Positions 46,489 to 59,749 of a stretch of 64,000 bases of DNA are shown here, piece after piece. Under the pieces are notes generated by a model. The model saw nothing but the letters and a program-made list of their open reading frames with translations, was not told the DNA's origin and did no database searches. Made by a program: the position numbers and the translations under genes. Source of the stretch: Pseudoalteromonas sp. Scap06 (GTDB taxonomy: Bacteria > Pseudomonadota > Gammaproteobacteria > Enterobacterales > Alteromonadaceae); assembly GCF_013394165.1 (NCBI RefSeq), contig NZ_CP041330.1, positions 1,294,501 through 1,358,500 on the forward strand, given 5' to 3'. How positions within the stretch are numbered: the stretch's first letter is position 1; each line of letters begins with the position of its first letter.

Positions 46489-47040
46489 GTGGCTCGAGGA
46501 ATTAAATTAGCCAGTACATTCTCAGATATATCCACGCAACTGCGGCGCTTTGTGTCTAAAATTGTGTTACCTGACGATGTTGATGATATTGTTCAAGAAA
46601 CCTTTGTTAAAAGTTATGAAGCAGAGCTAAAACAAGATATTCAATACACCCGCAGTTATATGTTGAAAACAGCTAAACATCTCGCCCTAAATCATATAGC
46701 TAAATGGGATAATAAATTTAGTACTCCTTTAAATCACGAAACTGAACTTCCTAAATTGCTAAAATCGATGCAATTAGAAGATGAATATACCTCCAAAGAG
46801 CGTTTTTTACTATTTTGTCGTGCTACTGAGCAGCTAAGCCCTGTAGTGAGAAAATGTTTTATATTAAAAAAAGTATATGGGATGAGCCAAAAAGAGATCG
46901 CACAGCAAATGCAGCTAAGTCAAAGTACGGTAGAAAAGCACATTGCTAAAGGGCTACTAAACACCATGCTATATATGCGCGACGAAGCGCACGATGAGAA
47001 TTGCCAACAAAGTGCGAGCATAGTGAGGGCTGTAAAATGA
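46489..47040 (+). CDS. ECF sigma factor, FecI-like
   Basis: 183 residues starting with GTG at 46489 (AAGGG nine bases upstream). Region 2 is recognisable in LRRFVSKIVLPDDVDDIVQE and TFVKSY, and region 4 in LSPVVRKCFILKKVYGMSQK followed by EIAQQMQLSQSTVEKHIAKG. First gene of a FecI-FecR-FecA type set: the stop overlaps the FecR-like gene by ATGA and a transducer-type TonB receptor follows. It is expected to be held by the FecR-like protein and to activate the receptor gene. A 287-bp AT-rich gap precedes it. Confidence 0.9.
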   Translation: MARGIKLASTFSDISTQLRRFVSKIVLPDDVDDIVQETFVKSYEAELKQDIQYTRSYMLKTAKHLALNHIAKWDNKFSTPLNHETELPKLLKSMQLEDEYTSKERFLLFCRATEQLSPVVRKCFILKKVYGMSQKEIAQQMQLSQSTVEKHIAKGLLNTMLYMRDEAHDENCQQSASIVRAVK

Positions 47041-48113
47041 GTAACATCCATCAATTTACATCAAAAGAGTTAATCTTAGAAAAAGCATCGCAATGGATAA
47101 GCGCGATTGATCGTGGCTTAAGTACACAAGAGCAAGAGCAATTTAAACTGTGGATGCTACAAAGCACGGCTCATCAGAATGCGGTATATGAATTAGCACA
47201 ACTGTGGGATGACTTAAGTGTGCTTAACGAGCTCAGCGTATTATTTCCTAATAAGCACTCAGCTGGCATTCAAACCAAGCCTGCTTATGTATACGGTATT
47301 GCGGCAAGTGTTGTTGCAGCCTTAATGATGTGTAGCTACTTTTTGCTAAACATGCAGAGCAACTTTAACCAAGATCTCGCTAAAGTAAATTACACAAAAA
47401 TTTATAAAACAAAGGTTGGCGAGCAAGCAACCTATGTTTTACCAGATGGCACCATAGTTCAGCTTAATACCAATAGTTCACTAGAAGTCGCTTATAGCCA
47501 AGGACGCAGACAGTTATTACTAAGTCGTGGAGAAGGGCGTTTTAATGTAGCTAAAGATGCATCACGCCCGTTTAGTGTTATGGCGGGGGATAAAAGCTTT
47601 ACCGCGCTTGGTACAGTATTCAACGTGCAGCGCAATACCTCATCTGATCTTGAATTGGTAGTTACTGAAGGTAAAGTAATGATCACCGACCCTAGTGTTG
47701 CTGTTAATGCTGACGATTTTAAAGCGTATCAACAAGCTGATAACAGCAACCAAGATATTCGCCAAATCAATGCCAACATTGTGATTTCTGGTGAAAAAGC
47801 CATTATTGAACAAAGCGTTACCAAACCAATCACACAGTTATCGGTTGATGATGTACAACGTGATTTAGCTTGGCAAAATGGCATGTTGATATTTAATGGC
47901 GAAAAGTTAGTTGATGCCTTAAACGAGGTTAGCCGTTATACCGCCACTCGGTTTGAATTATCATCTGATGAATTAGCGCGTATTAAAGTGGCAGGCGTTT
48001 TTAAAGCGGGTGATGTTGCAGGGCTTTTAGAGAGCCTACAAAATAACTTTTCAATTGAACATGAGCGTTTAGGCGAGCATGTTGTTAGTTTAAAATATCA
48101 AAAAAAATCATAG
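47037..48113 (+). CDS. FecR-like anti-sigma/signal-transfer protein
   Basis: 358 residues from ATG 47037, overlapping the sigma-factor stop. The N-terminal cytoplasmic domain (ASQWISAIDRGLSTQEQEQF, then WLLQS-like and NAVYELAQLWDDL) is the sigma-binding DUF4880-type part. One membrane helix near residues 80-102 (YGIAASVVAALMMCSYFLL) leads to the periplasmic FecR domain (TYVLPDGTIVQLNTNSSLEV, LLLSRGEGRFNVAKDASRPF, FTALGTVFNVQR). The last 80 residues contain a second STN-like segment, WQNGMLIFNGEKLVDALNEV. It receives the ligand signal from the receptor encoded next. Confidence 0.92.
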   Translation: MSNIHQFTSKELILEKASQWISAIDRGLSTQEQEQFKLWMLQSTAHQNAVYELAQLWDDLSVLNELSVLFPNKHSAGIQTKPAYVYGIAASVVAALMMCSYFLLNMQSNFNQDLAKVNYTKIYKTKVGEQATYVLPDGTIVQLNTNSSLEVAYSQGRRQLLLSRGEGRFNVAKDASRPFSVMAGDKSFTALGTVFNVQRNTSSDLELVVTEGKVMITDPSVAVNADDFKAYQQADNSNQDIRQINANIVISGEKAIIEQSVTKPITQLSVDDVQRDLAWQNGMLIFNGEKLVDALNEVSRYTATRFELSSDELARIKVAGVFKAGDVAGLLESLQNNFSIEHERLGEHVVSLKYQKKS

Positions 48114-48116
48114 GTA

Positions 48117-51100
48117 ATGGTAATGAAAATCACGCCATTGTTAATCAATGTTACTCATAAGGGTGTAAAAAGTAATTTAAAGATTAAAAAAATGATAAAA
48201 ACCTATAGAGGATTTTTGTTTGCTAACTGTTTATATAAGTTGCGCAGTAACCATACGTGTTATTTAAGTCCGCTGGGACTCGTTGCACCGCTGTTTTTTA
48301 GTATCAGTGTGCATGCGAGTCAAACTGAGGGACAAATGATGCAGTTTGATATAAAAGCGCAACGAGCAGACAAAGCCTTAATAGAATTTGCTAAGCAAAC
48401 TGAACAAACAGTGGTTTTTTCGTATGAGCTTGCTAAACAGTACGAGGCAAATTCATTATATGGATTTTATTCTCAACTCGATGCGTTAAACGCATTGTTA
48501 GCTGAGACTGAGCTCGATGCGGTTGTTGATCAAAATGGTTTACTGAGTATTAAACTCAAACAAATCAATAGGAAGAATAACAACATGATGAAGCTTTCAG
48601 GAGTTAGTGCTGCCGTATTACCTGCTTTACTTGCAGTTAATTCACAAGGAATAAATGCCGCTGAACAAAGCGCAGAAAAAAACATCGAAAAAATTGCTAT
48701 TGTAGGTAGTCGTGTCGCAGGACGTTCAGTTGAAGACTTACCTGTCCCCGTTGATATTTTAAGTGCAGAAGCACTCGAAAACACCGGCCAAACAGAAGTT
48801 GGCCGCATGCTTCAAGCTATCGCACCTTCTTTTAACTTTTCAAGTTCATCTATTAGTGATGGTACTGATGCATTAAGACCTGCAACGTTACGTGGCCTTG
48901 GCCCTGACCAAACATTGGTATTGATCAATGGTAAGCGTCGCCACCAAGCAAGTATTATTCATATTAATACCTCGGTTGGTCGTGGTACTGCGGGTACTGA
49001 CATGAATGCGATTCCAGCCTCAGCAATTAAACGTATTGAAGTGCTTCGCGATGGCGCTGCAGCTCAATATGGTTCGGATGCAATTGCCGGTGTTATTAAT
49101 ATCGTGCTAAAAGATGGCAGCGAAGGTGGTAAAGCGGCCGTTAACTACGGTGAGTATTCAGAAGGCGATGGCGAAACCATTAATATTGACTTTAATAAAG
49201 GCTTTGCTTTAGGTGATAACGGTTATTTAAATACAACTATTAACTACCGTGATCGTGCACCAACTAACCGTGCAGGCCTTCATGGCTCATGTCAGTTCTA
49301 TGGCTGTACTGAACTTTCTGATGGTACCTTGCTTGCAGGTGATCCACGCGAATTAACCGCACCGCGTGATACATTCAGAATTGGCGATGCTGATTCTCAA
49401 CAATTTGGTTTAACAGTTAACACCGGCTACGAATTAGGAGCGGGTGAACTATACGGTTTTATTACCTATTCAACTCGTGATAACGAATCAGCAGCATTTT
49501 TCCGCCATAATGCTAATGCAGGTGGTAACCCGGTACTTCAAGATGGCGATGCAACTATCCCAGCTGGTTTTTTACCTAAAATAAACACCACGATTGACGA
49601 TATTTCATATAACTTTGGTTATAAAACTGAATTTGATAACGACTCAAGCTTAGACTTATCGTACACCTATGGTGAAAACAGTATTGACTACACGACTAGC
49701 GATACTATTAATGGCTCTTACGCGAATTTTTTACGTTATGATCAAGGCCTAAGTGCAGCAGATATTCGCGCCACGATTCCACGTCAAGGTTACGCTTATG
49801 GCATGGAGCTATCACTGCAAACGATCAATCTTGATTTTACTCAAAATTTTGATGACTACTCGTTAGCAATGGGTGCTGAAATTCGTACCGATGAGTACCG
49901 AATTTTAGAGGGTAGTGAATATGCATATCGTGATTACGATACCAACAATGGTGTTAATATTTACGATGGACTAAGCGGTGGTATTGGCAGCGAAAACGCA
50001 TCCGGTGGCACACAAGGCTTTGGTGGTTCATCGCCAGCATCTTCGGTTGATGAGTCGCGTGATGTGATCTCATTTTACTTAGATGCTGAAGCTTACGTTA
50101 TTGAAGATGTAATTATCTCAGGGGCGTTACGTTACGACAATTACAAAGGGTTTGGCGATACAGTTAACTTTAAACTAGCCGGTAACTGGTCAGTAACTGA
50201 AGATATTTCACTTCGTGGTGCGCTAAGCTCAGGCTTTAGAGCACCTTCAATGCAACAGTTGTATTTTAACAACATCAGCACACAGTTTGTTGTAGGCCCT
50301 AATGGCAATTTAGTGGCTGAAGAAGTAGGGACCTTTAGAAACGATTCAACCCTTGCGCAAAGTTTAGGTATTCCTAAGCTCACAGAAGAGAAATCTCAAA
50401 ACCGCAGTTTAGGTATCGTTTATAACGTAAGCGATAATATTAATGTAACCTTAGATTACTACTCAATCGATATTGACGACCGTATTGTAATCAGTAATCG
50501 CTTAGGTAAAGGCTTATCAAGCAGCCTTGATGCCGCGTTATTAAGCTCGGGTGCAGGTGCAGGGCAGTTTTTCTTAAATGGCGCTGACACTGAGACACAA
50601 GGTATCGACTTTGTGGCTACATGGAATACAGAAGGCCTTGGCGGCACGCTTGATTTCACGCTAGCGGCTAACTTTACAGAAACCGATGTAGTGTCGTTAT
50701 TTACACCAGCAGGTTCTGGTCTTGAAACCGTGCCAGTCGATGATGTGTTTTCTGATCAAGAAATTTCTATTATTGAAGAATGGCAACCAGAAGATCGAAT
50801 TAACTTAAGTGCACTTTATCGTCGCGACGACTGGACAGTAAACCTATCGCTTAATCGCTTTGGTGAATACACAGTGGAAGATGGCGGCCGCCAGACTTAT
50901 GGTGCTGAAATTTTAACTGACATCAAAGTAAATTACTTTGTGACTGACGATTTATCAGTAAATATTGGCGCAAATAACTTATTTGATGTTTACCCAGATG
51001 AAAACACCATAGGTAATTCACGTTCAGGCACAATTGTAGATGCTCAAGGTAACACCATTGTCAGCAGCGATGGTGTATTTAAGTACTCACGTCGTTCAGC

Positions 51101-51155
51101 GCCATTTGGTTTTAACGGTGCTTACTACTACGTAGGTGCAGAGTACCGCTTTTAA
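48117..51155 (+). CDS. TonB-dependent transducer receptor with N-terminal STN domain, FecA-like
   Basis: 1012 residues from ATG 48117. The first ~67 residues include an atypical, long signal region (CYLSPLGLVAPLFFSISVHA). The STN domain follows at about 73-148 (MQFDIKAQRADKALIEFAKQ, TVVFSYELAKQYEANSLYG, LDAVVDQNGLLSIKL). At residue 157 a second, conventional signal peptide starts (MMKLSGVSAAVLPALLAVNS, ending INAAEQ). It is then a complete receptor: IEKIAIVGSRVAGRSVEDLP, plug with RPATLRGLGPDQTLVLINGK and AAQYGSDAIAGVINIVLKD, barrel to terminal YYVGAEYRF. The inner start at 48585 has AGGAAG upstream. With the sigma and FecR genes it forms a cell-surface signalling system; the ligand is unknown. 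Confidence 0.88.
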   Translation: MVMKITPLLINVTHKGVKSNLKIKKMIKTYRGFLFANCLYKLRSNHTCYLSPLGLVAPLFFSISVHASQTEGQMMQFDIKAQRADKALIEFAKQTEQTVVFSYELAKQYEANSLYGFYSQLDALNALLAETELDAVVDQNGLLSIKLKQINRKNNNMMKLSGVSAAVLPALLAVNSQGINAAEQSAEKNIEKIAIVGSRVAGRSVEDLPVPVDILSAEALENTGQTEVGRMLQAIAPSFNFSSSSISDGTDALRPATLRGLGPDQTLVLINGKRRHQASIIHINTSVGRGTAGTDMNAIPASAIKRIEVLRDGAAAQYGSDAIAGVINIVLKDGSEGGKAAVNYGEYSEGDGETINIDFNKGFALGDNGYLNTTINYRDRAPTNRAGLHGSCQFYGCTELSDGTLLAGDPRELTAPRDTFRIGDADSQQFGLTVNTGYELGAGELYGFITYSTRDNESAAFFRHNANAGGNPVLQDGDATIPAGFLPKINTTIDDISYNFGYKTEFDNDSSLDLSYTYGENSIDYTTSDTINGSYANFLRYDQGLSAADIRATIPRQGYAYGMELSLQTINLDFTQNFDDYSLAMGAEIRTDEYRILEGSEYAYRDYDTNNGVNIYDGLSGGIGSENASGGTQGFGGSSPASSVDESRDVISFYLDAEAYVIEDVIISGALRYDNYKGFGDTVNFKLAGNWSVTEDISLRGALSSGFRAPSMQQLYFNNISTQFVVGPNGNLVAEEVGTFRNDSTLAQSLGIPKLTEEKSQNRSLGIVYNVSDNINVTLDYYSIDIDDRIVISNRLGKGLSSSLDAALLSSGAGAGQFFLNGADTETQGIDFVATWNTEGLGGTLDFTLAANFTETDVVSLFTPAGSGLETVPVDDVFSDQEISIIEEWQPEDRINLSALYRRDDWTVNLSLNRFGEYTVEDGGRQTYGAEILTDIKVNYFVTDDLSVNIGANNLFDVYPDENTIGNSRSGTIVDAQGNTIVSSDGVFKYSRRSAPFGFNGAYYYVGAEYRF
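48570..48590 (+). promoter_or_regulatory. Internal translation start inside the STN-receptor gene
   Basis: AGGAAG (48570-48575) is followed after nine bases by ATGATG (48585-48590), in frame with the surrounding gene, and the encoded peptide is a normal signal peptide. A receptor lacking the STN domain could be made from here. Confidence 0.5.
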
Positions 51156-51182: not shown

Positions 51183-51202
51183 AAAGGGCCGTAAGGCCCT
51201 TT
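51183..51202 (+). terminator. Terminator after the STN-receptor gene
   Basis: AAAGGGCC pairs with GGCCCTTT around GTAA, followed by TTATCGTTTTT. Confidence 0.85.
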
Positions 51203-51279
51203 TATCGTTTTTATAGTTAAAGTGTTTATAGTGTCATAAAAACTTCACTGTTTTTAGTTTATGAAATCTTTAATAATAA

Positions 51280-51293
51280 CTGGACTAGACCAG
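51280..51293. promoter_or_regulatory. HutC/GntR-type operator upstream of phnW
   Basis: CTGGACTAGACCAG, whose core TGGACTAGACCA differs at one base from the perfect palindrome at 59651. It ends 17 bp before the phnW ATG and just after a TAATAAT that could be the -10. HutC-type GntR regulators such as DasR and PhnF bind TGGTNTAGACCA-type sites, and such a regulator is encoded at 52461. Confidence 0.75.
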
Positions 51294-51310
51294 ATTGAGT
51301 GAAATAAATT

Positions 51311-52408
51311 ATGAACAATTATTTGCTATTAACGCCCGGCCCATTAACGACCTCTAATACTGTTAAGCAGGCGATGCTTAAAGACTGGTGTACTTGGGAT
51401 GATGATTATAATCGCGACATAGTGCAAACAATACGTAATAAATTAGTATCGCTTGCGACATCACAACCTAATTATACTAGTGTATTAATGCAAGGCAGTG
51501 GCACTGCCAGTGTAGAGTCAGCGCTTGGCAGTCTTATTCCAAAAACGGGTAAGTTACTTGTTATTAATAATGGGGCATACGGGAAGCGTATTGCTGAAAT
51601 TGCCGACTATTTAGCAATTGACTGTCATGTTTTAAATTATACAGAAACGGCACTGCCAAACCTTAATGAGATTGATACTGTTTTAAAAAATAATTCAGGT
51701 ATTACTCACATTGCAATGGTCCATTGTGAAACGACCACAGGTATACTCAATCCTATTGAAGAGGTTGGCTCACTAGCTAAAAAGTATCAAAAGGTATTTA
51801 TTGTTGATGCTATGAGCAGTTTTGGCGGTATTGAGTTCGACCTTGCACAGTGGCATATAGATGTAATGATCAGCTCTGCAAATAAATGCATTCAAGGTGT
51901 CCCTGGCTTTGGCTTTGTGGTGTGTAAGCAAAGTATTATTGAGCAAAGTGAAGGTATTGCGCGCTCCTTGTCGTTGGATTTATATCAGCAATGGTTATGT
52001 ATGGAGCAACACCATGGTAAATGGCGTTTTACCTCGCCAACTCATGTTGTGCGTGCATTTTATCAAGCCCTGCAAGAGTTAGATGAGGAAGGAGGAATAG
52101 CAGAGCGCTTTAAGCGTTACTCGCAAAACCAAAAGACTTTGGTAGCTGGTATGAAAGCGTTAGGGTTTGTACCTTTACTGAATGAGGAAGTTCATTCCCC
52201 CATCATTACCTCATTCTTGTCGCCTAGCGAAGAGCATTATGATTTTAAATCTTTTTATAGTGCGTTAAAGCAAGAAGGTTTTGTTATTTACCCTGGTAAA
52301 GTTTCTAACGCCGATTGCTTTCGCATAGGTAATATTGGTGAAGTAGATGAGGCCGATATACAGCGTTTGCTTGATGCTGTGGCAAAAAACCAATATTGGA
52401 AAGCTTAA
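51311..52408 (+). CDS. phnW: 2-aminoethylphosphonate:pyruvate aminotransferase
   Basis: 365 residues, a fold-type I PLP enzyme. [19 protein letters not shown] opens it, as in all PhnW proteins; [19 protein letters not shown] binds the cofactor phosphate; [23 protein letters not shown] (Asp166) and [14 protein letters not shown] with Lys192 as Schiff-base lysine. It transfers the amine of 2-aminoethylphosphonate to pyruvate, giving phosphonoacetaldehyde and alanine. It stands alone on the plus strand, convergent with the gntR gene and separated from phnX; a shared operator sequence ties it to the opposite-strand operon. Confidence 0.95.
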
Positions 52409-52426
52409 AGCTAATTTCACCCGTGC

Positions 52427-52462
52427 AAGCGGTGCTTAATTTTCATTAAACACCGCTTTTTT
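52427..52462 (+). terminator. Terminator between phnW and the GntR gene
   Basis: AAGCGGTG (52427-52434) pairs with CACCGCTT (52451-52458), extended inside by TTAAT with ATTAA, then a T run reaching the gntR stop codon. Confidence 0.9.
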
Positions 52463-53147
52463 ATTGGCCATCAACCACCATTTCAATGGCATTATGCAAC
52501 CAGTACTCAATGTTATAATCAACTAACAAACCATGCTCATCAAATCGCTTTCGAATAACGTGTAAGCAGGGTGTACCGCTATTTTTTTCAAGTAGATGAC
52601 TCACTTCATCAGGTAATACCGTGACATTTATTATGCTTTGCTCTTTAACGATATTCGTTGCGTACTGTTTTGCCATAATATCGGTGATAGAGGTATCTAA
52701 GGGGTGTGAGTGAAAATCAGCAAAGCGTTTAGCATCACAATAAATATGCTCAAACATTACGGCGCGATTATCTAGACTACGTATACGTTGAAGATGATAA
52801 AGCTTTTGGGCATCTAACGCTCGGCAAATTTCAAGCTTTGCCTGCTGTTGTACACTCACGAGTGTCGTTTGTGCAACAAACCCTTGTTGTTTTGCCAATT
52901 CATAAAAATTGACTTTAGTAGCAGGGTGCCACTTTAATCTTTTTGGGGTGACAAACCAGCCTTTACGTTTTTGACTGAATATTAGGCCTTCAGCTTCCAA
53001 CCTCAGAAGCGCTTCGCGTACAGTAATTCGGGTAGAACTAAACTTTTGTTGTAATTCTCGCTCTGAAGGCAACTTATGACCCGCTGCAATCACGTCGGTT
53101 TTTAGTAGCGCATGAATATAATTACGGATCTCTTGATATAAAAGCAT
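52461..53147 (-). CDS. GntR/HutC family regulator of phosphonate use (PhnR/PhnF-like)
   Basis: 228 residues from ATG 53147 (MLLYQEIRNYIHALLKTDVI); a longer open frame to 53264 overlaps the preceding gene. The only purine-rich site, AGGA, is 14 bases before this ATG, so the start is less sure. The winged helix shows GHKLPSERELQQKFSSTRIT and VREALLRLEAEGLI; residues ~85-228 form a UTRA ligand domain (LYHLQRIRSLDNRAVMFEHI, VSHLLEKNSGTPCLHVIRKR). It is the last gene of the minus-strand phosphonate operon, so autoregulation through the operator at 59651 is likely. The ligand is probably 2-aminoethylphosphonate or a pathway intermediate. Confidence 0.88.
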   Translation of the reverse strand: MLLYQEIRNYIHALLKTDVIAAGHKLPSERELQQKFSSTRITVREALLRLEAEGLIFSQKRKGWFVTPKRLKWHPATKVNFYELAKQQGFVAQTTLVSVQQQAKLEICRALDAQKLYHLQRIRSLDNRAVMFEHIYCDAKRFADFHSHPLDTSITDIMAKQYATNIVKEQSIINVTVLPDEVSHLLEKNSGTPCLHVIRKRFDEHGLLVDYNIEYWLHNAIEMVVDGQ

Positions 53148-53180
53148 CGTTTGATTATTTATCCTAAAAATATAGTAGCT

Positions 53181-53233
53181 TAGCTGAGTATAATATGACT
53201 TATATTGTTTATGGTGAGTATTATATTCAGCTA
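53181..53233. repeat. Long inverted repeat between the FAD oxidoreductase and GntR genes
   Basis: TAGCTGAGTATAATA (53181-53195) and TATTATATTCAGCTA (53219-53233) are complementary at 14 of 15 positions, with a 23-bp spacer. It begins 3 bp after the oxidoreductase stop (minus strand) and ends 34 bp before the gntR ATG. It could be an mRNA hairpin limiting readthrough into gntR or a second operator; it lacks the TGGTCTAGACCA core. Confidence 0.6.
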
Positions 53234-53235
53234 GT

Positions 53236-54627
53236 TTATGAATCGACTTTAGCAGCATTGCCACTTAATTTAGCCAAAAAATTATCAATACTGCGAACTG
53301 CTGCATTACTATCTTCTGCGGCCTCTTTACGTCTTATTGCATTACGTACTAAATATGCACCTGCTGTTCGGATGGGTTCAATAGGAAACTGATTTAGTGA
53401 TTGATTAACTAAGCCACAGTTTTGCCACTTAGGATCATTATTGAGTACCATTGCACAGAGAATTTTTGCACCCAAATAAGATTGTACAATGCCATTGCCA
53501 GAGTAGCCACCTGCGTAAAATACATTTTTTTGATTGTTAAGCTGACCAAAGAATGGAAAGCCAGAAACGCTGCGATCGGAAGCGCCCGTCCACGTTCGTT
53601 CTATGGGTAAGTGATGCCTTCCAAAGAAATAATTGAGTGATGATTTTAAAATATCATCATAGCTGCTCGGCAAATCAAACTTTGGATGCACCTTATTACA
53701 ATAACTAAAAAAGTTTCCTCCTTTACCTAACATTAACCGCCCGTCACTGGTGGTCCGGTAGTAATTAACAAACAGACGAGAGTCAATAATAGCACTGCCG
53801 TGATTTAAATTTAGTTGCTCTAAAACTTCTGGGATTGGCTTAGTGATGACCATGTCACTAGAAACCAGTACAACAGAGCGAGAAAATACTTTATGTAAAC
53901 TAGGTAGCCACGCATTAACCGCAAAAATAACTGTATTGGATAATAGGTTCCCCTGACTTGTATGTACGGTTATTTGTTGATCGCCAAAGTGTTGCATATA
54001 TTCACATTGCTCTATTATTGTCACTCCAAGCTGTTGCGCGACTCGCTTTAACCCTCTGACGAGCTTCGCTGGTTGTACACTGCCACCATGTGCAGAAAAA
54101 TGAGCAGTGAGGTTTTGCTTTGAACCGGTTTGTTGTAATTGTTGAGTGTCACAAGAATGCCACGAATTAATTTTAAATTTATCTAAGTAATCAAGCGCGT
54201 TACTTAGTCGCCCAATTTGACTCGTGTTGGAGGCTGTATAAAAGCATCCATCAATTCGACAATCACAATCAATAGCATAAGTTAGCGTAAAACGCTTAAT
54301 ATCATGGACGGTTTGCTCAGATTGTTGTACTAAAAAAAGGGCGTTTTCTAATCCTACTAATTTAATCAGACTGGGTAATTTAGTCGACCATGTTAACATC
54401 GCACCGCCATTACGGCCCGATGCGCCCTGACCACACAACCCTTGTTCAATAATAGTCACTTTTTTTTGGGGCTGCTGTTGCTTGATTTGAATGGCGGTCC
54501 AAAGTCCTGTAAACCCCCCACCGATAATACAAATATCGGTGTGATGATTTTCAGGAAGTTGAGGAAGAAGTCTATCGGCATTCTCCTCTTTTATGGCGTT
54601 ATCAAACCAAAAAGGTTGATAATTCAT
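53236..54627 (-). CDS. FAD-dependent oxidoreductase (DAO family) of the phosphonate operon
   Basis: 463 residues. FAD-binding Rossmann motif DICIIGGGFTGLWTAIQIKQ near 31, then GASGRNGGAMLTWSTKLPSL near 69 (the GASGRNGG signature of glycine/D-amino acid-type oxidases), SAHGGSVQPAKLVRGL near 180, TWTGASDRSVSGFPFFGQL near 350 and YAGGYSGNGIVQSYLGAKIL near 380. It oxidises an amine with FAD. FAD enzymes of this type recur beside phnWX in other bacteria (named PbfC/PbfD, from memory) and handle N-alkylated 2-aminoethylphosphonate, which PhnW cannot use. That role is inferred. The start overlaps the phnX stop (TAATG). Confidence 0.8.
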   Translation of the reverse strand: MNYQPFWFDNAIKEENADRLLPQLPENHHTDICIIGGGFTGLWTAIQIKQQQPQKKVTIIEQGLCGQGASGRNGGAMLTWSTKLPSLIKLVGLENALFLVQQSEQTVHDIKRFTLTYAIDCDCRIDGCFYTASNTSQIGRLSNALDYLDKFKINSWHSCDTQQLQQTGSKQNLTAHFSAHGGSVQPAKLVRGLKRVAQQLGVTIIEQCEYMQHFGDQQITVHTSQGNLLSNTVIFAVNAWLPSLHKVFSRSVVLVSSDMVITKPIPEVLEQLNLNHGSAIIDSRLFVNYYRTTSDGRLMLGKGGNFFSYCNKVHPKFDLPSSYDDILKSSLNYFFGRHHLPIERTWTGASDRSVSGFPFFGQLNNQKNVFYAGGYSGNGIVQSYLGAKILCAMVLNNDPKWQNCGLVNQSLNQFPIEPIRTAGAYLVRNAIRRKEAAEDSNAAVRSIDNFLAKLSGNAAKVDS

Positions 54628-55436
54628 TAAGGACGCTCTCCTCGAGCGAGTCTCGCTTCAATTTGCATTAAAACAGGTTCGATATCAGCTAAAGAGTCAA
54701 TCACGAAATGAGCGCCGGCTTGATATAAATGCTGGTATGCTTCACGAGTTAAAACGGCTTGTTCATCGTTTGAGCACGCTGCCCATTCTTGTTCGGTTAA
54801 ACCGACTGCATTACCACTTAGGGCAACACCAACAGTCCACATTCCTGCATTTAACCCTTCAGCGATGCCAGGTGCTGAATCGTCAACTTTTACACAGTTC
54901 GCAACACGTTGAATGCCTAGTGCATTCACGTTTTCAAGTGCCATCCATGGCCCTGGGCGAGAGCCAGCCGTTAGTTCATCACTACCAACGCTATGATCGG
55001 GTTGGTAACCATATTCAGCGGCAGCCACTTCAAGCACGTCCATCACTTGGCGAGGATAGCCTGAACAGCTGCCAATTTTAATACCTTGCTGTTTTAAACG
55101 CGCTATTACGGGTAATACGCCAGCAATAGGCATAGCACGATCTGCGACTTTAGCTTTTTGTAATGGCATAAAGGTATTGTAAATATGATCTATTTGCTCA
55201 TTAGTCATTGAGCAGCCAAATTGTGCCTGCCAACGAGATTCAATTTCCGGTAATTTACCTAGGGTTGCAATATGGTCCCATTTTCCCATGCCCATCGGAA
55301 TACGCGCTTGCGCCAGCGTAATATCAAAATCAAACGCGGCTTTAAATGCCTCCACAAAAATAGTGGTTGGCGCTACAGAGCCATGGTCTACAACTGTGCC
55401 GGCCCAGTCTAAAATGAGTGCTTCTAAATGTTTCAT
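54627..55436 (-). CDS. phnX: Phosphonoacetaldehyde hydrolase (phosphonatase)
   Basis: 269 residues from ATG 55436, which overlaps the transporter stop (ATGA); the longer frame to 55532 lies inside the transporter. HAD fold with nucleophile Asp10 ([12 protein letters not shown]) and the Schiff-base Lys52 in [27 protein letters not shown] and [20 protein letters not shown] hold the remaining HAD motifs. It cleaves the C-P bond of phosphonoacetaldehyde to acetaldehyde and phosphate, completing the route started by PhnW. Confidence 0.95.
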
Positions 55437-56764
55437 ATTTCTTCTCTTATATATGTAGGTGTAGATACAGGGTGTAACCTGCGAACTTGTTTGAAAGGGG
55501 ATAAGCGCATTACAAAGTAGCTTAGTGAGCACAATACCAAGAATGCAGCGATACAGCCGACCCAGTAACAGGCGTTTATAAAAAAGTTAAGCCAACTAAT
55601 CTCAGGCATCACAAAGGTGCGATAGAGTAAGATACTCACCGAGCCCAAATAACCAGCTGAGTCTGCTAAGTAAATTAAAAACCCGGCATTAGCGGTTGAG
55701 CCAACAGCAGAAATCATACGGTCAAATAAGAAGCAATTGTAGGGGATGTAACTAATATAAAGGCCAGCCCCAAGGAGCACCATCCATGCCTTAGCGTTTA
55801 GTAATTGGCTTTCAAACGCAACAGTACTGCCTACGAACAAGCAGGCACCAAACAAAATGAATCCGTGGTTTACATAAAAAGCGGTTTTATTATTTTTTAC
55901 TAACACCATTGCACCAAGTGCAATCAAGACTATAAATGCCATACGTATACCTGCATAGGCGAATATAGCTGGCTCTTGGCCATATCCCAGTGCTTGCCAA
56001 ATTTCTGCGGCAAAGTTATCGCGAAAGTCACGAAAGCCAGTAAATAATAAGAAACTCAGAATTAAACAACTAATACCAAACCAGTATTGTTTGAAAAACT
56101 GCCAGCGGGCTCTACCATTCATAGGTAAGCGTTGTTGACGCGCCTGCTGATCCTCTGGTGTTGGATTGGGTAACAAGGTTAAACACTTAACACTAAGTAA
56201 CAACAAGGGTAAAAATAACGCTCCGGTTGCGGCAGGCATCCACAGTTCCGGAACATTGAGATTATCTATCAGCCATTTACCGACACTGCGCACTAAACCT
56301 GACGCCAAAATAAAGGTGACACTGAGAATGGCACCGAGTATCTCAGAAGTTCGTCTGCCTTCTAAGAAACTAAATACAATACCCCAAATCATTCCCAACG
56401 ATAAACCATTAAAAAATAGCCATACTACGTTGACTCCAACAGGGGTCACGGCAAATAAAATTAGCGATAATTCAGCTGCTGTAATCATACCAATGATGGC
56501 AAGACCCCGTTGTTGGTGCCGCATTTCTGCAATGACCTTAACACCAATAAATTTGGCGCATAAGTAGCCAAATACTTGTGCCAGTATGAGTGCTATTTTA
56601 AAGCTAATTTGCCAACTTGGATCGTCAAACTCTGTATAGCTGTTAGCTGTAAAGGGTTTACGAAATGCATACATACAAAAGTAAGTCATAAATGCAGCGC
56701 TTGCTGCAAATAGAACAAACCCAACACCTTGTGCACGATGTAGCCACTTTGGTTGCGTAAACAT
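55433..56764 (-). CDS. MFS-like inner-membrane transporter of the phosphonate operon
   Basis: 443 residues with about 12 membrane helices. The first helix ends in [20 protein letters not shown], a signature I associate with DUF5690 and related major-facilitator-like proteins, and a long cytoplasmic loop rich in Arg and Gln follows helix six ([16 protein letters not shown]). No ABC transporter genes (phnSTUV type) are present, so this is the likely importer of the phosphonate across the inner membrane. It is coupled to phnX by ATGA and follows the TonB receptor gene by 44 bp. Specificity is inferred from position only. Confidence 0.78.
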
Positions 56765-56776
56765 AGGGTTATCCTT

Positions 56777-56796
56777 CGCGAGGCTTTCGCCCCGCG
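56777..56796 (-). other. GC-rich intercistronic hairpin between receptor and transporter genes
   Basis: CGCG-A-GGC pairs with GCC-C-CGCG around TTTC, with one A/C mismatch. It sits in the short gap after the TonB receptor stop and before the transporter ATG. No T run follows, so it more likely protects or processes the receptor mRNA than terminates it, allowing more receptor than downstream enzymes. Confidence 0.5.
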
Positions 56797-56808
56797 TAAT
56801 ACAATAGA

Positions 56809-59625
56809 TTAAAATTGATAATTAATACCGACCATGCCGCGAACACCATAATACTCAACTTGCAGTGGGCGATTTTCATCTCCCAAATAATATTTAAGCG
56901 GTTCGTTAGTTAGGTTATTTAATTCAAGATAAACTAATGCATTTTCGTTAAGCTGGTATGACGTAGTAAAATCAACACTAACATTTTCGCCATAATAGCT
57001 ATCCGATTGCCGATCACTGCCATGCTCTTCGATGTACTCGCCTTTATAATTTAGGGCAACCCGCGCGGCAAAGAAGCTGTCATCGTAATATAAGGTAAAG
57101 TTATAGAGGTTATCGGCTTGACGCGGAATCGCTACTTTATCGCCACGATCTGGAATATTCATTTGTGAGTCCATAAAGGTCGCATTCACCATTACTCCAA
57201 AGCTATCTAGAGTCGGATTGATGAAGCCCAAATCGCGATTAAAGGCCATCTCAATACCTGCAAGCCATGCGCTGTCGCCATTTTCTGGGCGCACAATATT
57301 TACACCACTGTTATCATTAAACTGACCAATTGAGCTACTTTGAAAAATTGGGTCGCTAATGTCCTTGTAAAACAGGCCTGCAGAGACTAAACCAACACGT
57401 TCAAAGAAATGCTCAACCATCAAATCAACATTATTTGAGTAAGTGGGTTCGAGTTCGGGATTACCGGTAACAAGTTCGTTATCTGCTTCTAAGTAGGTTG
57501 CGCCTGGTGTTAAAGAGCCAAAGTCAGGACGTGAGAACGAGCGGGTTAATGCTAAGCGGTAGTTGGTTTGCTCGTCGCTGTGATAAGTAACATGTAATGC
57601 AGGTAACACCGATAGGTAATCATTTTTAGCATGACTTGGTGTAACTCTATCTTCATCAGCCAGGTATATATAACCATTCACCTCAGTATCAGTTTGAGTT
57701 AGGCGCAAACCACCTAGTATTTCCCAGTCGTTATTAATTGTATAGGTTGCCATACCATATAGTGAGGTGTGCTGCTCGTTAACATCAAAATTACGTCCTA
57801 ACGCACCGCCATTTTCAATTAAGGCAGACTCACTTTTATCAAGTACAAATTTGTCTTTATTGGTATTCCAAAACTGCGCTAGATCGCCGGTATCAACAAC
57901 TTGCGAAAATTGCTGTTGGTAATCAATAGCTAATTCATTTAAAAAATCATTGCGGCCTGGCTGATCTGCCAAAGTAAAGTCACTTAAGCTTGGCGCAGCG
58001 CCATAGTTTGCTTCATCCCACGCGTAAAATTCATCGCTAAAGCGGGCGACACGTTCTTTATCACGGTATTTGGCACCTATTTTTACAGTTAAGTTTGCAT
58101 CTACTTGCCATTCGAAATCGGCACTCGCGACAATTTTATCTTTTTCATTAACGAATATTTTATATAACTCTACCCATGAAAGATTAGTATTAGCAGGATC
58201 GAATGAAAAATCACTAGGTAAATGGTTACTGATTGCATTCCATGGATCGCTGCCACCATCAATCGTATTATAAGCGTAATTTTTGCCTGTGCCCCTGTCT
58301 TCTAGTCCTTGAAAGCCAACCTGTTTTTGGTCAAATCTGACAACAAAATAACTGTTGTCTTCGCTATTTGGGGTATTGCCATAACGAAATTCATTCTCGT
58401 AACTTGATAACTTCCAACTAAGAGTTTTGTCATAACCAAAATAATGCTCAGCCTCTAACTCAAGCCCAGTCATTTCGGTAATTAATTCATTGCGGATATG
58501 TTGTACTTCAGCGCGATTTTTATCAAAGCGCATACGGTGCTTATAATGTGTTTCGTCATCAATTAAAGTCCCATACATGGCTGTGGCGCTAATTGTGCCT
58601 TGTTCAAGTTGATACTCAACAGCACCATTAAGTCCATAAGTTTCGCGCGTGCCGGTATAATCTCGTAACTCTAAGCGATAAATGCCTAAACCATCATTGC
58701 CACGGCGCGGCTCATAGTTATCAGTGGCCCAGTCACGTTGCCACGCAGTCGCATTGATCAAAAAACCTAATTTGTCGTCTAGTAAGCGGTCGCCGTAAAG
58801 TAAGTTTGCTGAATAATTAGTGCCATCGGCAAGCTCATTTTGACCAATTGCAAAATTAGTATTAAACACAAAATCATCGGGCGCTTTTTTAGTGATAAAA
58901 TTAACATTACCGCCAATGGCGTCACCTTCAAGGTCAGGGGTTAGCGCTTTCGACACTTCGACAAATTCAATTAATTCACTAGGGAAAAAGTCAAAAGCTG
59001 TTGCTCGACTGGTGGTTTCTTCTTCAGCCGTTGGTAAACGATCGCCGTTGATACTCGCAGAGCTCCACTGTGCCGGTAGACCGCGCACAGCAACAAAACG
59101 ACCTTCACCTTGGTCACGTTCAATCGACACACCTGGTATACGCTGTACAGCTTCAGCTGCATTTCTATCAGGTAGTTTTCCAATACCGTCAGCAGAAATA
59201 ATATTTTTAATACTTTTGGCATTTTTTTGGTTATTAGCTGCCGCCATTTCACCGCGCTGAATTTGGCCGACAGCAATTATTTCTTCAATGGCGTTATTAT
59301 TATTTGCAGCAAAAAGAGTGATTGGTTTTAGCTTTTTTATTTCGCCTTCACCAACAGTAATATCAACAAAATAAGGCTGATAGCCTAAATAAGTCACTTT
59401 AAGTTGGTGTTTACCTGGATTTAACTGCGGTAACTCAAATTGTCCCTGATAGTTTGTTACGGTACTTTTACCAGTACCAACTACTGTGATTAATGCGCCA
59501 GAGAGCAGTGATCTACTATCTTCTACAGTGCCTACAAATGTAGCGTTACCGGCAACGGCATCTTGGGCAATAAATAACGGGCTAGTACACAGTAATATAG
59601 CAGTGGCTATTGCATGTCGTTTCAT
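56809..59625 (-). CDS. TonB-dependent receptor of the phosphonate operon
   Basis: 938 residues. The signal peptide ends near DAVAG (about residue 26). A carboxypeptidase-regulatory-like domain follows at about 30-108 (FVGTVEDSRSLLSGALITVV, TNYQGQFELPQLNPGKHQLK, VTYLGYQPYFVDITVG). The TonB-box-like EEIIAVGQI is next, then the plug (IGKLPDRNAAEAVQRIPGVS, RFVAVRGLPAQWSSASINGD, LEGDAIGGNVNFITKKAP) and a barrel ending VRGMVGINYQF. Transcribed first in the minus-strand operon, 26 bp after the palindromic operator. It is expected to bring a phosphonate-containing compound across the outer membrane. Free 2-aminoethylphosphonate passes porins, so a larger or N-substituted form is more plausible. Confidence 0.88.
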   Translation of the reverse strand: MKRHAIATAILLCTSPLFIAQDAVAGNATFVGTVEDSRSLLSGALITVVGTGKSTVTNYQGQFELPQLNPGKHQLKVTYLGYQPYFVDITVGEGEIKKLKPITLFAANNNNAIEEIIAVGQIQRGEMAAANNQKNAKSIKNIISADGIGKLPDRNAAEAVQRIPGVSIERDQGEGRFVAVRGLPAQWSSASINGDRLPTAEEETTSRATAFDFFPSELIEFVEVSKALTPDLEGDAIGGNVNFITKKAPDDFVFNTNFAIGQNELADGTNYSANLLYGDRLLDDKLGFLINATAWQRDWATDNYEPRRGNDGLGIYRLELRDYTGTRETYGLNGAVEYQLEQGTISATAMYGTLIDDETHYKHRMRFDKNRAEVQHIRNELITEMTGLELEAEHYFGYDKTLSWKLSSYENEFRYGNTPNSEDNSYFVVRFDQKQVGFQGLEDRGTGKNYAYNTIDGGSDPWNAISNHLPSDFSFDPANTNLSWVELYKIFVNEKDKIVASADFEWQVDANLTVKIGAKYRDKERVARFSDEFYAWDEANYGAAPSLSDFTLADQPGRNDFLNELAIDYQQQFSQVVDTGDLAQFWNTNKDKFVLDKSESALIENGGALGRNFDVNEQHTSLYGMATYTINNDWEILGGLRLTQTDTEVNGYIYLADEDRVTPSHAKNDYLSVLPALHVTYHSDEQTNYRLALTRSFSRPDFGSLTPGATYLEADNELVTGNPELEPTYSNNVDLMVEHFFERVGLVSAGLFYKDISDPIFQSSSIGQFNDNSGVNIVRPENGDSAWLAGIEMAFNRDLGFINPTLDSFGVMVNATFMDSQMNIPDRGDKVAIPRQADNLYNFTLYYDDSFFAARVALNYKGEYIEEHGSDRQSDSYYGENVSVDFTTSYQLNENALVYLELNNLTNEPLKYYLGDENRPLQVEYYGVRGMVGINYQF

Positions 59626-59650
59626 TATTAGTTTTACCTTAAGTTTATTT

Positions 59651-59662
59651 TGGTCTAGACCA
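59651..59662. promoter_or_regulatory. HutC/GntR-type operator upstream of the receptor-led phosphonate operon
   Basis: TGGTCTAGACCA is a perfect 12-bp palindrome and shares CTAGACCAGAT with the phnW site at 51281. On the minus strand it lies 25 bp before the receptor ATG. It is identical to the core of the DasR-responsive element recognised by a HutC-type GntR regulator, the same class as the protein encoded at 52461. Confidence 0.8.
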
Positions 59663-59749
59663 GATGTTTTAACTAATAATAGTGATGAATTTTTACAAAC
59701 ATGTGACGAAACTAATTTTTTTCACAGGAGGGGATTTTTTTAAGGTAAC

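Follow-up and report, generated by a model that had tools for sequence, protein, structure and literature searches.

The 64,000-nucleotide stretch of Pseudoalteromonas sp. Scap06 analyzed here (contig NZ_CP041330.1, positions 1,294,501 to 1,358,500; hereafter the window) carries a putative locus for phosphonate uptake and breakdown, in which phnW on the plus strand is convergent with a five-gene minus-strand operon that runs receptor-transporter-phnX-oxidoreductase-gntR from 59625. The same short palindrome precedes phnW and the receptor gene. Judged from the sequence and its comparison with relatives, phnW and the receptor operon very probably form a single regulon controlled by the GntR-type repressor that the last gene of the operon encodes, and it is reasonably likely that full expression also needs phosphate starvation acting through PhoB, as in an AND gate. 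The features of the locus are as follows.

51183..51202, plus strand: terminator-like stem-loop 3' of the upstream FecR/TonB-receptor genes
51231..51248, plus strand: Pho box GTGTCATAAAAACTTCAC of the phnW promoter (matrix score 15.7; conserved block among seven relatives)
51281..51292, plus strand: candidate operator TGGACTAGACCA of phnW, 18 bp before the phnW ATG (51311), kept in 40/40 loci
51311..52408, plus strand: phnW, 2-aminoethylphosphonate--pyruvate transaminase (TIGR02326, 599.3 bits; cut-off 400.8)
52461..53147, minus strand: GntR/HutC-type (UTRA) regulator (PF00392, PF07702), ATG at 53147 (open reading frame opens at 53264)
53236..54627, minus strand: putative flavin adenine dinucleotide (FAD)-dependent aminophosphonate oxidoreductase, Pbf-like (PF01266; TIGR03329, 582.4 bits, below the cut-off of 632.8)
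54627..55436, minus strand: phnX, phosphonoacetaldehyde hydrolase, ATG at 55436 (TIGR01422, 315.9 bits; cut-off 220)
55433..56764, minus strand: DUF5690 transporter with a major-facilitator fold (PF18943, 513 bits)
56809..59625, minus strand: TonB-dependent outer-membrane receptor (PF00593, PF07715, PF13715; TIGR01782, 475.7 bits; cut-off 310)
59651..59662, minus strand: candidate operator TGGTCTAGACCA of the receptor operon, 25 bp before the receptor ATG (59625), kept in 41/42 loci
59676..59681, minus strand: probable -10 element TATTAT, a conserved block in a seven-sequence promoter alignment
59692..59709, minus strand: Pho-box-like element TCGTCACATGTTTGTAAA, a conserved block 10 bp before the -10 element (matrix score 0.4)

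The gene identities proposed by a first-pass annotation made from the sequence alone are borne out by curated or Pfam models (PhnW, PhnX, GntR-UTRA, oxidoreductase, transporter and receptor). Both PhnW and PhnX score above their curated cut-offs, which assigns the locus to the phosphonatase (PhnWX) pathway. The start of the regulator was chosen from its homologues, among which it is conserved, the 269-amino-acid form of PhnX was used, as matched in relatives, and the N-terminus of the receptor is carboxypeptidase-regulatory-like.

In the proposed mechanism, the GntR/HutC-type protein (52461-53147) would be a diverged PhnR, whose dimer would bind the palindrome just downstream of both start-site regions and block transcription of phnW and of the receptor operon. 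An intracellular aminophosphonate or phosphonoacetaldehyde would release the regulator, and uptake and breakdown would then rise together. Substrate would enter through the TonB receptor in the outer membrane and the DUF5690 permease in the inner membrane; 2-aminoethylphosphonate would be converted to phosphonoacetaldehyde by PhnW, and N-methyl forms probably by the oxidoreductase, while PhnX would split phosphonoacetaldehyde into acetaldehyde and phosphate. As the product of the last gene of its own repressed operon, the regulator would limit its own level, and the Pho box before the operators would combine PhoB activation with GntR repression. In relatives, the same repressor may also control a probably secreted phosphodiesterase, encoded mostly at a distant place.

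Operator sites in the window and the genome

Both palindromes lie where the first-pass annotation had placed them, at 51281-51292 before phnW and at 59651-59662 before the receptor gene, and they are the sole matches without mismatch in the window. That annotation had suggested a genome scan, in which many unrelated matches would speak against a regulon; the pattern TGGNCTAGACCA was found without mismatch at exactly two places in the whole 4.13-Mb genome (two contigs), namely these two operators. All 30 one-mismatch places were examined, and 29 of them are inside open reading frames of at least 100 amino acids, including one (TGACCTAGACCA) that is also 49 bp before another reading-frame start and another that is also 181 bp before one; the remaining place is outside reading frames, with no start codon within 250 bp. 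With up to two mismatches, the window holds 13 matches against 9.9 expected, neither rarer nor commoner than chance, and the whole-genome counts of the operator pattern resemble those of the control. The evidence rests on position and conservation, and it was on these, not on rarity, that an origin as chance palindromes was rejected.

An identical CAGAT flank had been noted at both sites. It is indeed present to the right of both on the plus strand, and thus falls on opposite sides relative to phnW and the receptor gene. Column counts over the 40 and 41 sites of the survey below give a longer, weaker palindrome, about AATC-TGGWCTAGWCCA-GATT, which includes CAGAT as an arm, and a role of CAGAT as an orientation mark of the operator was rejected.

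According to a previous study, the HutC operator consensus is NyGTMTAKACNy (PMC4494728). The receptor operator GTCTAGAC fits its core, GTMTAKAC, and the phnW operator GACTAGAC departs from that core at one position, which was counted as agreement; at the weak y positions, the window operators have G and A. The dre sites associated with DasR and NagR resemble TGGTCTAGACCA.

Two further candidate targets were rejected. Direct autoregulation through an operator before gntR was dismissed, with no TGGNCTAGACCA match within two mismatches in the oxidoreductase-gntR gap of the window (a two-mismatch site is present in that gap at locus L081), and so was control of the neighboring FecR/TonB-receptor genes, with no match within two mismatches just before either gene (one two-mismatch match lies inside the neighboring TonB-receptor gene).

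Conservation of the operator among relatives

The regulator was detected in 17 of 395 family genomes at E 1e-40 and in 104 of 394 order genomes at E 1e-20. Sixteen family relatives, the three best order-level others, 36 named loci and the window made up 56 loci, ten of which were dropped for a regulator gene identical to another's, leaving 46 distinct loci. The pattern TGGWMTAKWCCA is present within 220 bp upstream of phnW in all 40 loci with a phnW start (the six others being L085, L087, L089, L093 and, at a contig end, L102 and L103), and within the same distance upstream of the receptor in 41 of 42 loci, L092, L113, L127 and L128 having no receptor that passed the filter of 40% identity and N-terminus. 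Upstream of the transporter, it was found in 3 of 41 loci (L091, L092 and L128), where the operon is rearranged and the transporter heads its own transcript with its own operator. Regulators in operator-bearing loci go down to 41% identity. The operator is at most 60 bp from the start codon in 39 of 40 phnW and 38 of 41 receptor genes, and it is still present at the two broken phnW genes of the 40 (L110 and L113).

Across 884,779 bp there are 92 exact sites, 87 of them within 230 bp upstream of phnW, the receptor or the transporter, and the reversed operator pattern gave none in the same sequence. The other five, corresponding to 5 of 472 other upstream regions of open reading frames, precede further candidate members: a second receptor and a calcineurin-like phosphoesterase at L092, a PF01663 phosphodiesterase at L096, and a PF01266 oxidoreductase at L126 and L127 (at L127 by position and a similar N-terminus).

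Decaying clusters, in which phnW, the receptor or the oxidoreductase is broken or missing (L110/L224 and L113), retain operators and gntR. As well, paired operators 89-91 bp apart stand before the receptor in three Thalassomonas-group genomes (L085, L087 and L089), and two operators 92 bp apart precede a distant transporter at L214, an arrangement that suggests looping or cooperative binding.

Distant copies and co-occurrence

In genome G434 (genus of Thalassomonas sp. RHCl1), the main cluster is without phnW and DUF5690, and both genes are located hundreds of kb away on the same contig, each with an operator, of which the transporter has two. Among 108 Pseudoalteromonas genomes (thresholds E 1e-60 for phnW and E 1e-40 for the regulator), phnW was found in 37 and the regulator in 37; 36 genomes have both, each occurs alone once, and 70 have neither. 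The lone phnW (G614, 61% identity) serves as a natural negative control, the nearest site within 300 bp having at least three mismatches, and the genome with the lone regulator (G771) has a phnW fragment that still bears an operator. A single regulon with two promoters and one operator, as first proposed, thus receives strong comparative support from the 40/40 phnW and 41/42 receptor loci, the G434 copies, the co-occurrence and G614.

A phosphodiesterase as a further candidate member

The operators outside the core genes led to a phosphodiesterase of the alkaline-phosphatase superfamily (PF01663). Four of the five members aligned carry a lectin-like LamG or a hemopexin domain, and the enzyme is probably secreted, its N-termini resembling secretion signals by eye. 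A profile of these five members finds the gene in 23 of the 108 Pseudoalteromonas genomes, namely in 22 of 37 regulator-positive versus 1 of 71 regulator-negative genomes, and the single regulator-negative copy is interrupted by three stops and lacks an exact operator within 4 kb. An exact operator precedes the gene in 21 of the 22 regulator-positive genomes; in the 22nd, the gene is broken and the operator lies before its first piece. The phosphodiesterase adjoins phnW in G756 only and is elsewhere more than 200 kb away or on another contig. No such gene was found by the five-member profile in the window's own genome.

These distributions suggest that the phosphodiesterase gene is an additional, new member of the operator-marked regulon, one that the first-pass annotation could not see. 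Because the repressor-operator pair also marks a probably secreted phosphodiesterase in relatives, the natural substrate is suggested to be often an esterified aminophosphonate, bound to lipid or glycan.

In the genome of L092, a second receptor and a PF01663 lectin-domain phosphodiesterase, as well as a calcineurin-like phosphoesterase, are found next to phnW (L217, 1611-7349); the receptor/phosphodiesterase group and the calcineurin-like gene are each behind the same operator.

Putative uptake and catabolic genes

It is unlikely, though the receptor's own relatives give the idea some ground, that the receptor and DUF5690 import a non-phosphonate compound, such as an oligosaccharide or an iron chelate, and are merely co-regulated. 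The receptor belongs by its score (475.7 bits vs 310) to the TIGR01782 group, which is often linked to carbohydrate uptake, and among proteins of solved structure its sequence relatives are colicin I receptors, which are iron-siderophore receptors. As for the transporter, no paper naming DUF5690 was found in the open-licence PMC literature, and a sequence search of the PDB with the DUF5690 profile gave no match at E 0.01. Against such an import stand the operon shared with phnX and the oxidoreductase, the operator shared with phnW, the operator kept by the distant DUF5690 gene, and a DUF5690 paralogue accompanied by PF01663, PhoD-like and alkaline phosphatase genes. Moreover, the top structural match of the DUF5690 model is SLC37A4, a glucose-6-phosphate:phosphate antiporter, with a narrow lead.

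The paralogue belongs to parallel modules, at L212 (7952-16692) and L213 (7739-15467), with DUF5690 (42%) and GntR (33-34%) counterparts; the gap that follows gntR holds palindromes of their own, TTGGTATGTACCAA and TTGGTCCRTACCAA, and the module of L212 adds TonB receptor, PF01663, PhoD-like and alkaline phosphatase genes.

Phosphonate import by DUF5690 would have a parallel in AepP, a GlpT relative, although neither AepP nor GlpT is among the 50 best structural matches listed for the DUF5690 model, which excludes neither. AepP has been described as a major-facilitator 2-aminoethylphosphonate permease, a single protein used together with enzymes that degrade 2-aminoethylphosphonate (PMC8316502). 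DUF5690 would likewise act as a single-protein major-facilitator permease, and its top structural match is an organophosphate:phosphate antiporter; however, it constitutes a separate Pfam family.

The published FAD oxidoreductases PbfB, PbfC and PbfD oxidize N-methyl-aminoethylphosphonate, in the case of PbfB as seen with cell extracts (PMC10590968). Similar to these, the window's PF01266 enzyme is encoded within a phnW/phnX cluster. Its best model, TIGR03329, does not reach the cut-off (582.4 vs 632.8); Vibrio is the source of the published PbfB, and a record of Vibrio campbellii contains a 47.6% relative. The identification of the oxidoreductase as PbfB is a lead only.

In polysaccharide utilization loci, one local regulator governs a secreted enzyme, a TonB receptor, a transporter of the inner membrane and enzymes inside the cell. 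By analogy, the same component set would be assembled here under one local regulator, whereas the target would be a phosphonate and the part of the enzyme would fall to the PF01663 phosphodiesterase, which the window's genome lacks.

The regulator and its known relatives

The operon was said to encode a HutC-type GntR protein, and its last product indeed has a GntR winged helix (PF00392, 66.8 bits; cut-off 27) and a UTRA domain (PF07702, 86 bits; cut-off 23.8), both above the Pfam cut-offs. R30 and R40 are invariant in 15/15 homologues and align with Arg38 and Arg48 of NagR, which were reported to read two guanines (PMC4333415), so that the protein has the DNA-reading arginines of the NagR/DasR kind. 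Against the PhnF model TIGR02325, it scores 78.8 bits, below the cut-off of 156.8. Only one further UTRA regulator was found in the genome; it passes the curated cut-off for HutC and, by eye, has Asn at the Arg38 position, and regulation by this second protein was rejected.

More distant relatives within the order were covered by 26 loci of 3.7 kb (L033-L058); a phnW start falls within 14 of these, and all 14 have TGGWMTAKWCCA ahead of phnW. At L033, the regulator passes the PhnR model (380 bits; cut-off 297) and adjoins PhnS, and TGGTATAGACCA lies 20 bp before phnW, while L044 has a putative 2-aminoethylphosphonate substrate-binding protein. Since the operator occurs beside distant GntR relatives, including a curated PhnR (L033), the predicted pairing of regulator and operator belongs to a known kind and extends beyond this clade, and it is the uptake module that differs. 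The window shares with PhnR clusters a GntR/UTRA protein beside phnW and the same kind of operator; unlike them, with their ATP-binding cassette (ABC) substrate-binding protein, its operon encodes a TonB receptor together with a putative permease, DUF5690.

That the regulator is instead an activator, or a dual regulator, which recruits polymerase when phosphonate-bound, seems distinctly improbable. An activator would be compatible with the predicted sites, and an operator at most 60 bp from the start codon gives alone no sign. However, the operator follows the conserved -10-like block and precedes the start codon, a roadblock position, and the HutC-type relatives NagR, DasR and PhnF have been described as repressors (PMC4918961, PMC7866108, PMC4333415).

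Repression by the window regulator would have a parallel in PhnF of Mycobacterium smegmatis, a HutC-type repressor that, according to a review, binds two promoter-region sites and controls an operon for phosphorus uptake that rises under phosphate limitation (PMC7866108). The likeness is that of a HutC-type repressor of a phosphorus-uptake operon with two promoter-region sites, whereas PhnF governs a phosphate ABC transporter, not phosphonate catabolism. DasR and NagR control amino-sugar regulons (PMC4918961, PMC4333415); their two guanine-reading arginines are conserved in the window regulator, but no amino-sugar gene was seen among the window operon genes.

Pho boxes and the proposed phosphate gate

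A Pho matrix was built from 28 distinct boxes of pstS/phoB promoters (39 promoters), which were picked with a consensus sequence, and applied to the stretch of at most 100 bp ahead of each operator, with 254 other upstream regions as control (95th percentile 6.7, 99th percentile 11.3). Pho boxes, which the first-pass annotation had not noted, are enriched before the operators: the phnW promoters exceed the 95th percentile in 40/40 and the 99th in 32/40 cases, and the receptor promoters in 34/41 and 14/41, respectively; against the 99th percentile of shuffles, 37/40 phnW and 31/41 receptor promoters pass. The 18-bp box of the window's phnW promoter, at 15.7, is above the 99th percentile of the control. 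In the receptor promoter, the element CGTCACATNTTTGTAAA, the -10-like TATTAT region and the operator are conserved blocks among seven close relatives. The phoB gene is present in 20/20 genomes searched, the window's included.

It is very hard to believe that PhoB alone controls these genes, with the palindrome belonging to another factor and the neighboring GntR protein acting elsewhere, for although most operators of phnW and of the receptor have a Pho box before them, phnW and the regulator co-occur (36 both, 1 each, 70 neither, of 108), the operators also mark phosphodiesterase genes of regulator-positive genomes, and HutC is the sole further UTRA protein found.

Several points weigh against a single, PhoB-gated GntR regulon. 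The pattern TGGWMTAKWCCA was fixed after the first set of sites had been viewed, which makes the operator counts descriptive in part. The palindrome before phnW is imperfect, the receptor of L126 has no operator (the sole exception of 42), the regulator reaches 213.3 bits with the PhnR model TIGR03337, below its cut-off of 296.75, and a simple scan found no sigma-70 match at the phnW or receptor promoter. As regards the Pho boxes, that of the window's receptor scores 0.4, below the 95th percentile of the control; 13/40 phnW promoters have their best box on the opposite strand; box positions before the receptor vary; and only 8/21 phosphodiesterase promoters exceed the 95th percentile and 4/21 the 99th, which a fifth ties. 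Graded by these passes for each gene, dual control by PhoB and the GntR protein may be called likely at phnW and probable at the receptor, with less support at the phosphodiesterase.

Comparison with published phosphonate uptake

Published routes of phosphonate uptake include ABC transporters and facilitators such as AepP (PMC8316502, PMC10574752). A 2023 review presumes that phosphonates enter via porins such as PhoE, and the words TonB and GntR are absent from its main text (PMC10574752). Within the open-licence PMC papers, no description was found of GntR-controlled phosphonate uptake by a TonB receptor and DUF5690 or of a receptor-phosphodiesterase system for phosphonates in Pseudoalteromonas. 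PhnR-type control of phnW is known, and its proposed extension to an uptake module of TonB receptor, DUF5690 and, in relatives, a probably secreted phosphodiesterase, probably gated by PhoB, is new; a catalogued PhnR motif may exist in RegPrecise-type databases, outside the literature covered.

We consider it about evenly balanced whether the locus represents a phosphonate utilization locus of the following kind: a PhoB-gated, diverged PhnR would control a TonB receptor and, with DUF5690, a new family of inner-membrane phosphonate permeases, joined in many relatives by a phosphodiesterase that is secreted and often bears a lectin domain, and would thereby harvest lipid- or glycan-bound aminophosphonate by active outer-membrane import, not by porin diffusion. 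If receptor, DUF5690 and phosphodiesterase do serve phosphonates, they would provide marker genes for a missed uptake route, and would offer a hypothesis on bound phosphonates as a source for marine bacteria. The regulon is also a clean case of a predicted regulator-operator pair retained while the transport module differs.

Neighboring genes and other observations

Directly upstream of phnW (46489-51155), the window holds a 183-amino-acid open reading frame (46489-47040), FecR and a second TonB receptor; the reading frame sits where a FecI-type sigma gene is expected and is putatively one by position. The FecR and receptor pair adjoins phnW at L075, L076 and L077 too. The stem-loop at 51183..51202 probably isolates phnW transcription from these genes.

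HD-domain proteins are encoded in or beside the regulon at L078 (10016-10561), L126 (12877-13467) and L214 (8229-8780), with TIGR03276 (phosphonate degradation HD oxygenase) as the best model, below its cut-off; no HD-domain protein of the TIGR03276 type was seen in the window's cluster. Finally, in Pseudoalteromonas luteoviolacea (L107, 10743-13874), a DUF819 membrane protein and a Cache-domain chemotaxis receptor are encoded between gntR and phnW, and the latter protein is conceivably a phosphonate-sensing receptor.

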